Part shown: in pieces, positions 22,107 through 28,543 of the stretch
Position numbering within the stretch: position 1 is the first letter of the stretch
How the letters are laid out: the number at the start of each line of letters is the position of its first letter
Origin: Natrinema marinum
Lineage (GTDB): Archaea; Halobacteriota; Halobacteria; Halobacteriales; Natrialbaceae
Direction: 5' to 3'
Assembly: GCF_024296685.1 (NCBI RefSeq)
Contig: NZ_CP100763.1
Span: forward strand, 3,286,001-3,350,000
DNA length: 64,000 nt
Made by a program: the position numbers and the translations under genes
The notes under the pieces: model-generated
Told to the model about the DNA's origin: nothing
Seen by the model: only the letters and a program-made list of their open reading frames with translations
The model's database searches: none

Positions 22107-22476
22107 GCGTGTCCTGACGGGCTCGAGCTACCTAAATCGCCGGTCGTCCGTTCGAACCGATCGGTCGGTATTTCGACTGAAAACGGGTTCTGCTCGAGCC
22201 ACAGTCCAGGAGGTGCGCTGGATCGAGATGGGGTGAGTCACCGTCTCCGCTTCGGACGAAACGAAGCGCTTCTGCTCCCCTGGCAACACGGAATCGCAAC
22301 GTCCTCCCCAACCGATTCGCTCACTCACGCCGTTCGTTCGCTCATCCCTCGCGCAACATCGTCGCCCGTCCACGCTAGCGCTCGGCCGGCGACAGCGCGC
22401 GCCACCGCACGTGAATCGCACCGCTGGCTATCGCTCACCCTCTTAAAGAAACGGAAAATTCGAACGACTGCTCGTC
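22107..22476. other. Gene-free 370-bp gap with a dispersed GC-rich element
   Basis: No convincing frame exists. Between 22299 and about 22400 lies a block with imperfect short repeats of TTCGTTCGCTC and CGCGC type. Its first 19 bp match a segment at 61417-61435 with one difference (see repeat entries). Confidence 0.6.
22299..22336. repeat. Dispersed intergenic element, copy A
   Basis: ACGTCCTCCCCAACCGATT at 22299-22317 matches 61417-61435 except for one base. Both copies continue into TCAC and GCCGTTCG; copy B carries about 6 extra bases that form a hairpin. Both are intergenic. Confidence 0.55.
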
Positions 22477-26654: not shown

Positions 26655-27812
26655 GTGTCCCGCGACCGACTCTTTGCCTCCCTCTGCGGCTTCGTCTTTC
26701 TCATCAATCTCGCCAGAATCGTCTTCGCGCCGCTGTTGGACGTCTTCATCGCCGAGTTCGGGATCACCGAGGCGACCGCCGGCCTCATCGCGACGCTCGT
26801 CTGGGTCGGGAGCGCCTCTCTCCGACTTCCCACCGGCTGGCTGCTCACGCGAGTCCCCCGACACCGAATCGTGCTCGGCTCCGGCGTCGTGCTCGCGCTC
26901 TCGAGTGCCATCGCCGCGACCGCGACCACGGTCCGCCACCTCATGGCCGGGGCCTTCCTCATGGGCATCGCCTCCGGGATCTACTTCGTCTCGGCGAACC
27001 CGCTCCTGAGCGAGCTCTACCCGGCCCGCGTCGGCCGCGTCATGGGGATCCACGGGGCCTCGAGCCAGATCGCCGCGGTGATCGCCGCGCCGTTCGTCGC
27101 GCTCGCGCTCGTCGTCGACTGGCGGCTCTCGCTGTGGGCGATCGCCGCGGGTGCGGCGGTCATTACGGCCGTAACGTGGATCGCCGCGAAGCGGACCGAC
27201 CTGCCGGACGCCGGCGCGGCAGATCGCGACTTCGTCGCCGGGGCGCTCTCGGAGTGGCGGATCATCGCGACGGCGCTGGCGATCGTCGGCGCGGCCGTGT
27301 TCGTCTGGCAGGGCGTGTTCAACTTCTACGAACTCTATATGCAATGGAAAGGGCTCTCGGACCGGACCGCGGGCGCGTTGCTCACGCTCGTCTTCGCCGC
27401 CGGCGTCCCCGCCTTTTTCGTCGGTGGCGATCTCGCCGATCGGCTCCCACAGGTCCCCTACCTGCTCGGCATCGTCGGCGCGTTCGCCGCGGCGCTTCTG
27501 GCGCTGACCGCCGTCGAGGGCCTGTTCGCGATCGCCGCCGTCACCGCGGTCCTCGGCTTCGTCGTCCACGCGCTGTTCCCGGCCACCGACACCTACCTCC
27601 TCGATACCCTCCCCGATTCGACCCGAGCCAGCGCCTACGCCGTCTTCAGCTCCGTCTGGATGCTGACGCAAGCGCTCGGCTCGTCCGCGGTCGGCTTCTT
27701 CCTCGAGCGCGGCTACACTTACGATGCGGTGTTCGCCGGTGCCGCGCTGTGTCTCGGCGCGACGATCGTCGTTCTGGCCGCGCTCGAGCGGGCGGGGCGA
27801 CTCCCGAGTTAG
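26655..27812 (+). CDS. MFS transporter
   Basis: 385 residues, 11-12 predicted spans with the two-halves pattern of the major facilitator superfamily. The loop after span 2 has LPTGWLLTRVPRHRIVLG, a version of the MFS motif A. The initiation codon is GTG (GTG TCC CGC GAC); an AT-containing ACGTTTGAGG lies about 29 bp upstream. Many of its features (ITEATAGLIATLVW, ELYPARVGRVMGIHG) match haloarchaeal MFS proteins annotated without substrate. It is a single gene; export of a small organic molecule is only a guess. Confidence 0.9.
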   Translation: MSRDRLFASLCGFVFLINLARIVFAPLLDVFIAEFGITEATAGLIATLVWVGSASLRLPTGWLLTRVPRHRIVLGSGVVLALSSAIAATATTVRHLMAGAFLMGIASGIYFVSANPLLSELYPARVGRVMGIHGASSQIAAVIAAPFVALALVVDWRLSLWAIAAGAAVITAVTWIAAKRTDLPDAGAADRDFVAGALSEWRIIATALAIVGAAVFVWQGVFNFYELYMQWKGLSDRTAGALLTLVFAAGVPAFFVGGDLADRLPQVPYLLGIVGAFAAALLALTAVEGLFAIAAVTAVLGFVVHALFPATDTYLLDTLPDSTRASAYAVFSSVWMLTQALGSSAVGFFLERGYTYDAVFAGAALCLGATIVVLAALERAGRLPS

Positions 27813-27912: not shown

Positions 27913-28001
27913 ATGCGAGGCTTGGGATTTGAACCACGGGAAGACGGTCGCTCACTCCGTTCGCGCTGCGACTTCCCTGATTCAAATCCCGCGTCTCGCA
28001 T
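27913..28001. repeat. 89-nt hairpin of two inverted tRNA 3'-end-like sequences
   Basis: Arm 1 (27913-27943) contains ATGCGAGG, TTGGGATTTGAAC and GGGAAG; arm 2 (27972-28001) is its imperfect reverse complement. The stem extends through GTCGC at 27947-27951 and GCGAC at 27968-27972. Arm 1 resembles the 3' end of the tRNA-Leu at 28031-28058 (same TATGCGAGG, TTGGGATTTGAACC). It looks like a tRNA-derived element or decayed attachment site. Confidence 0.7.
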
Positions 28002-28031
28002 ACACGACTCTCACTATCGTTCGAGTCGGTA

Positions 28032-28115
28032 TGCGAGGGTTGGGATTTGAACCCAAGGACTCCTACGAGAGCGGGTCTTAAGCCCACCGCCGTTGGCCTG
28101 CTTGGCTACCCTCGC
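28032..28115 (-). tRNA. tRNA-Leu (anticodon UAA)
   Basis: 84 nt on the minus strand. Acceptor stem GCGAGGG pairs with CCCTCGC; the discriminator is A. The anticodon stem GTGGG/CCCGC encloses CTTAAGA, so the anticodon is UAA and reads UUA. A long variable arm (class II, as expected for Leu) and a T arm TTGGG-TTCAAAT-CCCAA follow. No intron is present. The CCA is not encoded. It is flanked downstream by the tRNA-like hairpin. Confidence 0.96.
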
Positions 28116-28201: not shown

Positions 28202-28543
28202 CTACCAGTCGACGCTCAACGTGCCGTCGCCGTGGGGATCGGGCGCGATCTCTTCGTCGGTCCGGCGGTCGACGACGTGGATGCAGCCGTCGTCTTTCTT
28301 CGCGGGACAGACCTCGGCCGCACGGACGTTGTGCTCGAGATCCTCCTCGCCGAAGAAGTACTCGTTGGGCTGGGCCATGCCCGAGGCGATGGACATCTCC
28401 CAGTTGGCGCTGACCTCGGCGCACTTGCCCGCGCCGAAGCACTTGTTGGCCTCGAAGATGATCTTGTAGGGCTTCTCCTCGACCGGCGGCGCGTCGCTGG
28501 AGCCGACATCGCTGGCGCGCTGGATGCCGTCGTCGTCGCTCAT
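28202..28543 (-). CDS. Single-cluster [3Fe-4S]-type ferredoxin
   Basis: 113 residues. Cys35, Cys41 and Cys79 (CFGAGKC, then VCPAKKDDGC) are the likely ligands; the second Cys of the usual CxxCxxC is replaced by Ala38, the pattern of [3Fe-4S] ferredoxins that donate electrons to P450s and other enzymes. Cys87 also lies near. An acidic N-terminal tail (about 1-22) is typical of halophiles. It acts as a cytosolic electron carrier. The redox partner is unknown; no P450 is in the window. The gene sits just downstream of the tRNA-Leu and is co-oriented with the SDR. Confidence 0.85.
   Translation of the reverse strand: MSDDDGIQRASDVGSSDAPPVEEKPYKIIFEANKCFGAGKCAEVSANWEMSIASGMAQPNEYFFGEEDLEHNVRAAEVCPAKKDDGCIHVVDRRTDEEIAPDPHGDGTLSVDW

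Follow-up and report, generated by a model that had tools for sequence, protein, structure and literature searches.

Small hairpin units behind archaeal tRNA genes resemble tiny insertion elements of a hitherto undescribed type that target these genes

The window, namely the whole 64-kb stretch of DNA that was analysed, comprises bases 3286001-3350000 of the complete 3.77-Mb genome of Natrinema marinum. ARAGORN and Rfam RF00005 place a tRNA-Leu(TAA) gene on its minus strand (28032..28115). This gene is flanked by an MFS transporter gene on the plus strand (26655-27812, PF07690) and, on the other side, by a gene for a small 4Fe-4S-like protein on the minus strand (28202-28543; PF13459, under the cut-off of that family). 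Elsewhere in the window, at approximately 22300-22345 on the minus strand, lies a second haloarchaeal hairpin repeat (GCGCGAGGGATGAGCGAACGAAGTGAGCGAGTCGG..) that occurs in multiple places, including L391:1309.

Read in the sense of the tRNA, and thus on the minus strand throughout, the locus has the order R1, H1, IR, H2, R2. R1 (TTCAAATCCCAACCCTCGCA; 28032..28051) consists of the 20 nt from T54 to N73 of the tRNA, the part that is copied according to a boundary profile of 154 units. H1 (27990..28031) is a trailer hairpin, belonging to class a of the genus, together with an outer degenerate inverted copy of the acceptor and T-stem, TATGCGAGACGCG. IR (27981..27989, GGATTTGAA) is an inverted copy of the T-loop with the first T-stem bases, and is host-specific in other units. 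H2 (27934..27980) is a conserved hairpin module, AGTCGC...GCGAACGGAGTGAGC...CCGTCT, with a CCGTGG end abutting R2; two congeners (L345, L346) match it exactly over its first 44 nt. R2 (27914..27933) repeats the 3' end of the tRNA in direct orientation and is identical to R1 at 19 of 20 positions, and the R1-to-R2 spacing is 118. The initial annotation had described a hairpin built from tRNA-Leu 3'-end copies with arms at 27913-27943 and 27972-28001. These arms are correctly placed and form an inverted repeat of 27 nt (81%), and the direct repeat is exactly the 20-nt tail, whereas the inverted arm is a copy of the T-loop with weak matches past the T-stem. The folded region is more stable than 200 of 200 dinucleotide shuffles (z -4.3), and near-matches to TGGGATTTGAACC number three in the window against 0.45 expected.

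The window unit is one member of a large family and no one-off. A DNA search of the window genome (G000) matched seven further tRNA loci, four of which, Leu(tag), Ser(tga), Ser(gga) and Ile(gat), have the same anatomy; the other three are tRNA-Leu genes without a unit. Scanning the 45 tRNAs found by Rfam in this genome adds units at Val(cac), Val(gac), Val(tac), Gly(gcc) and His(gtg); weaker candidates lie at Lys(ttt) and Arg(gcg). A pattern scan of the same genome found no hairpin of this type far from any tRNA, its sole match being one unrelated palindrome.

Units were counted in four genomes by requiring an R2 that matches at 16 or more of 20 positions at a distance of 40-230 nt. By this rule, units lie in 10 of 48 tRNA contexts in the window genome, in 20 of 43 and 19 of 44 in two other haloarchaea of close species (G060 and G008, respectively), and in 18 of 36 in a woesearchaeote (G174), contexts not being quite equal to genes, as a few duplicates and one ARAGORN artefact are counted in. 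At 18 or more of 20 positions the counts are 10, 17, 18 and 10 in the same order. Upstream controls yield 1, 1, 1 and 0, the antisense strand downstream yields 2, 1, 0 and 3, and the tails of other tRNAs yield a mean of at most 0.1. Among the matches to the rule are two ordinary-looking long att repeats, one in G060 (Leu caa) and one in G174 (Cys). Coverage extends to all 42 Rfam tRNAs of G060 (30 + 12 loci), 43 of 44 fetched places in G008 and 38 of 40 in G174. Single tRNAs are followed by arrays of up to five units.

Across genomes, the pattern TTCAAATC..GATTTGAA..TTCAAATC occurs in 12 of 24 Halobacteriales genomes and in 0 of 124 further genomes from that phylum, the reversed pattern giving zero matches; such three-core scans detect the commonest T-loop only and are no census. 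A pattern scan of a species collection gave at least 120 matches. Among the 80 loci listed the majority are from Halobacteria, and two woesearchaeotes and one Paceibacterota contig appear real (L196, L224 and L251), with R2 equal to R1 at 16/20, 20/20 and 20/20 positions, respectively; the other bacterial loci listed resemble chance matches or tandem tRNAs. These 80 loci hold 95 matches, 62 of which start inside a tRNA called by ARAGORN, and many of the remaining 33 are second units or antisense readings. A literature search by titles and abstract starts found no description of such units, which does not by itself show their absence from print.

Viral and plasmid collections were searched as well. 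Pattern scans of IMG/VR revealed no real unit, the matches inspected being AT-rich chance, and blastn of a phage collection with the window unit gave no match; a virus-borne element was accordingly rejected. The earliest IMG/VR pattern was too loose, with at least 120 matches. Inner sequences above 50% G+C were inspected among the 80 loci listed, and these were taken as chance palindromes with the exceptions of L114 and L139. In L114, a prophage-like contig, a tyrosine integrase gene adjoins a perfect hairpin (1103-1163) in which an inverted tail, a loop and a tail follow one another, as in R'-H2-R; there is no tRNA around it in the stretch fetched. Of the five plasmid matches, two are units linked to a tRNA; the other three are copies of a separate repeat with an H2-like hairpin inside. 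A megaplasmid of Natrinema thermotolerans (L384; CP031304, near position 235.4 kb) has a complete unit behind the 3' portion of a tRNA-Glu, at a place where no whole tRNA is called. In three haloarchaeal plasmids (L386, L387, L388), a conserved repeat of ~160 bp has no tRNA, encloses an H2-like hairpin (GGGAAGTCGCAGCCCGCGCAACGGAGTGAGCAGGACCGTCTTCCC) and has no Rfam match.

The boundaries of the copied segment were profiled on 157 units from 232 contexts, less three tandem tRNAs, which leaves a sample of 154 that is biased in that many loci were fetched by pattern. Agreement between R1 and R2 rises at the 5' edge from 0.28 at position -3 to 0.81 at -2 and 0.98 at G53, stays at 0.95-1.00 through the tail, and falls from 0.90 at the discriminator N73 to 0.55 at the next base. 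R2 is thus a copy of the tail of its own host tRNA that extends to the mature 3' end and no further. This abrupt boundary may merely reflect that R1 has to stay a working tRNA end, and a genuine att in the window genome ends at the same base. R2 lies mostly 70-180 nt past R1 in a search that extended to ~230 nt, and neither an integrase nor any other gene was found inside the units. The fetched loci likewise contain no gene-bearing cassette except at a tRNA-Gly of Halorientalis marina (L254:2500-4290), where a 1.5-kb stretch beyond two units holds two ORFs and closes with a further tail copy without IR-H2. One ORF encodes a TrmB-type HTH/DUF7437 protein; the first resembles a PIN domain by eye, with no Pfam match at cut-off. 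This stretch is perhaps a gene-bearing insertion at the same array.

These boundaries bear directly on the proposal of the initial annotation that the repeats are att-site remnants of an integrated element, in the form that ordinary tyrosine-integrase elements crossed over in the T-loop and later lost their interior. The units do contain the direct repeat of the tRNA 3' end that such a history would leave, tRNA tails are usual targets of integrases (PMC8371274), and the hairpin of L114 stands beside a tyrosine integrase gene. The window genome, however, offers a real comparator, namely an element of ~22 kb at tRNA-Gly(tcc) with its integrase at 188640, ~0.8 kb downstream of the tRNA. Its att is 42 nt long and starts in the anticodon arm, where the unit repeat starts at T54, and it has neither an inverted arm nor IR-H2. 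(Three att copies at this tRNA, at C1 187833, 209663 and 212809, correspond to tandem inserts of ~22 kb and 3 kb.) In the woesearchaeote G174, integrase genes lie right behind two tRNAs without any unit structure; tyrosine recombinases as a general class were catalogued in all four genomes. Transfer of such remnants between different tRNAs would moreover give a tRNA the wrong tail, and the constant small size and modular build of the units are unlike random remnants. We therefore regard an origin as ordinary att remnants as very unlikely, chiefly on the boundaries and the comparator at tRNA-Gly(tcc).

Two parts of each unit follow the host, while two others travel. R2 tracks the host tRNA even where congeners altered the T-stem, and between genera it is conserved nearly as well as R1. 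Among 282 units compared with their host T-loops, 219 contain exactly one exact inverted T-loop type in IR, and in 210 of these 219 that type fits the host; 59 units contain none and four contain several. The fit extends to hosts with rarer loops (22 of 23). Beyond the IR core, the match to the unit's own tRNA is raised over the first four T-stem bases only (by 0.11-0.25) and weakly in the acceptor. In contrast, the hairpin modules are shared among hosts. In G008, tRNA-Gly(ccc) and tRNA-Gly(tcc) have a 30-nt H1 in common and differ in IR (GGAATTGAA vs GGATTCGAA), each matching its own T-loop. The best H2 match at another tRNA has a median identity of 0.85 (31 of 145 at 0.9 or above), against 0.74 at the same tRNA and a median of 0.64, with a maximum of 0.70, for shuffled queries. 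In G060, the unit of Lys(ttt) is 94% identical to that of Arg(ccg) and 90% identical to that of Arg(tct), even though the Lys tail differs from that of either Arg at 4 of 20 positions. Across 29 genomes of the genus, the H1 and H2 classes at Leu(TAA) are shuffled.

Both occupied and empty sites exist among relatives. Together with the result that hairpins of this type were not seen away from tRNAs in the window genome, this means that the conditions named by the initial annotation as refuting it turned out in its favour. Of the 29 genomes compared at Leu(TAA), 20 carry an R2 that satisfies the counting rule. The nine without one include decayed units, and in one congener (L355) a different sequence lies right behind the tRNA, an ORF similar by eye to an IS1341-type TnpB. 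In three comparisons (L370/L371, L367/L356 and L366/L365+L369), the one of the two loci that holds fewer units aligns to the sequence past R2 of its counterpart; alignment of the empty trailer after R2 and after R1 scores 89 vs 7 for L370/L371 and 39 vs 16.5 for L367/L356. The other six of the nine have their best alignment after R1 or none that is clear, as for decayed units. Between G060 and G008, 38 of 42 tRNA pairs are identical from the tRNA start to N73; the number of units nevertheless differs at 21 of the 42 tRNAs, agrees with units present at 4, and is none at 17. Two of the 21 differences, Ala(cgc) and Leu(caa), are seemingly effects of the R2 threshold. Clean empty/occupied pairs, again scored after R2 and after R1, are Glu(ctc) (115.7 vs 26), Glu(ttc) (77.7 vs 31.2) and Gly(tcc) (71.6 vs 10.2). 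Gly(ccc) is not clean, its empty trailer fitting equally after R1 and R3 (64 each), and neither are Arg(tcg) and Pro(tgg), which give no clean alignment from the tRNA end. The evidence on movement consists of presence and absence at species level; we infer that the differences between relatives are mostly insertions rather than losses. The alternative offered by the initial annotation, a mobile tRNA-derived palindrome, comes close, as units come and go precisely at tRNAs, form arrays and share modules.

Movement in this sense need not require a dedicated system. Unequal recombination between R copies could yield arrays and empty sites, and ancient units might have been altered by unequal homologous recombination, by gene conversion through the T-loop/B-box, and by template switching at hairpins in polyploid cells. 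Some 10 nt around the T-loop are common to all tRNAs, tandem units are at times near-identical (L259, L448), and IR resembles a fold-back copy of the tail. Such an account would, however, need H2 to be copied between loci through homologies of ~10 nt and new tRNA genes to be filled precisely at T54 and N73, and it has to accommodate a woesearchaeote that also has units, with its own tails. We judge it improbable.

Position in the array matters too: a perfect R2 occurs in 130 of 188 first units against 27 of 64 later ones, which is what entry of new units next to the tRNA would produce. Duplicated repeats with new units beside the tRNA recall insertion by a Cas1- or casposase-like enzyme, in which the tail would be a target-site duplication and the arrays would be CRISPR-like with the tRNA body as leader; the precedent is the A. 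boonei casposase, which recognises TCAAATC of the tRNA T-loop (PMC6614799). The duplication described there measures 14-15 bp and starts 8 bp 3' of TCAAATC, not at T54, and a casposon target-site duplication was rejected against the T54-N73 boundaries of the units. The units also lack terminal inverted repeats, and the inverted host copy would be left unexplained, so that this reading is extremely improbable.

Covariation supports the hairpin. An alignment of 18 units of a single H2 length, free of gaps, has 89.8% of its cells paired and 37 double changes against 14.3 when shuffled (0 of 500 shuffles); the unpaired upper-stem cells are mostly G-A. Sliding the alignment drops pairing to 18-40%, a control that favours the structure in that it was taken from one of the 18 sequences. 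H2 of tRNA-Leu(TAA), being of another length, lies outside this set. The sense strand gives the better fold in 117 units and the antisense strand in 27, and tandem G.A tip motifs occur on the sense strand only (42:0 in H2, 52:0 in H1). These data speak for a single strand in the tRNA sense, either RNA or DNA. G-U asymmetry was rejected as proof of RNA, there being no excess (177 in sense vs 164 in antisense folds).

A first rival reading is that of an RNA element. The tRNA transcript would continue, H1 and IR-H2-R2 would fold and act in 3' processing, in termination or as a switch, and IR would pair either with R2 or with the tail of its tRNA, while selection would keep both R2 and IR matched to that tRNA. 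The strand preference, the tips and the covariation all fit this reading, as do the match of IR to the host T-loop and the conservation of R2 almost at the level of R1; the conservation of H2 may itself stem from an RNA role. Yet the units are patchy, with numbers that differ at half of the tRNAs of two close species, old units decay, and G-U pairs are not in excess on the sense strand. Nor do the units belong to an Rfam family: tRNA alone reaches its gathering score, and the best other matches are miRNA models far under theirs. An RNA role therefore appears rather unlikely, although it ranks next after insertion, with recombination without dedicated mobility third.

Insertion is the most likely reading in this ranking. 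We give about an even chance to the view that each unit is a very small gene-less DNA element inserted at the tRNA 3' end with host-templated copies of the tail. Insertion would turn a free tRNA (body, tail R, trailer) into one whose tail reads R1-H1-IR-H2-R2. As R1 is a full tail, the tRNA would remain intact, and R2 with the old trailer would be displaced downstream. H1 and H2 would be hairpin modules that move between tRNA genes, and R1, IR and R2 would be copied from, or fitted to, the host tRNA. Small arrays would form as new units enter beside the tRNA and older ones decay farther out. The substrate would be a single strand folded as the H1 and H2 hairpins. By analogy, the order R-H1-R'-H2-R, which can be seen as the unfolded form of a tail duplex with a hairpin at each end, may arise by copying round such a hairpin-closed duplex (a 'dumbbell') or by a recombinase acting at the T-loop of a folded strand. 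Both ideas predict that host-copied bases match as they do, with R exact, IR following the T-loop, and H1 and H2 shared; they were framed after part of the data was known, and this fit is no independent test. Counting against this reading, the units have neither terminal inverted repeats nor an encoded protein, and no candidate enzyme was found.

More tentatively, the units could be the work of an archaeal DNA insertion system that writes small arrays behind nearly any tRNA gene from two travelling hairpins with inverted and direct copies of the host tail, the repeat always being made from the target. Such a system would operate in haloarchaea, in woesearchaeotes and perhaps in CPR bacteria (one case, L251). 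Should insertion be correct, the units would in our judgement rank with the smallest known elements that integrate, and they would take their repeat from the target instead of bringing it along, which none of the families tested does in this form. As a case of structure-guided insertion at tRNA genes they would be new and open to testing, alongside integrons and the origin of CRISPR arrays proposed from casposons. Should they instead act as RNA, well-studied archaea would contain a large family of tRNA tail elements that has gone unnoticed. On either reading, care is needed with trailer annotation and att-site calls in haloarchaea.

Among known systems, integrons and Xer-dependent single-strand integration invite a structural comparison. 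The consensus core of integron attC sites is GTTRRRY, and both at attC and in Xer-dependent phages the recombinase acts on a folded single strand. The units resemble these systems in their inverted core sites (IR and the core of R2) around a variable hairpin with covariation on one strand, in arrays that grow at one end and, possibly, in a folded single-strand substrate. They differ in their core, which is GTTCAAA or a host T-loop variant and not GTTRRRY, and no cassette genes or IntI were seen. A conserved one-base bulge in IR, comparable to the extrahelical bases of attC, was rejected: it occurs in 8 units against 2 by chance, and the unbulged form in 18 against 2.9.

Tyrosine-integrase elements at tRNA genes (PMC8371274) likewise target the tRNA 3' end, restore the tRNA and displace the old tail; unlike the units, they bring an integrase and kilobases of DNA. 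Casposons and CRISPR share with the units a T-loop motif as guide, a duplicated repeat and leader-side growth; they differ in a shorter duplication placed further 3', in terminal inverted repeats and in the large size of the elements (PMC6614799). The nearest published small elements that we met are the SMR-A short mobile repeats of Haloquadratum walsbyi, described together with the PATEs of that organism (PMC3119063). SMR-A are also gene-less, measure ~110 bp and lie in haloarchaeal palindromes; they have their own terminal inverted repeats, do not duplicate the target, and insert into PATEs and IS605-type elements. The units, in contrast, have ends that vary by eye and an inverted arm that follows the host; they target tRNA tails, duplicate 20 nt of them and carry an inverted copy of the host sequence.
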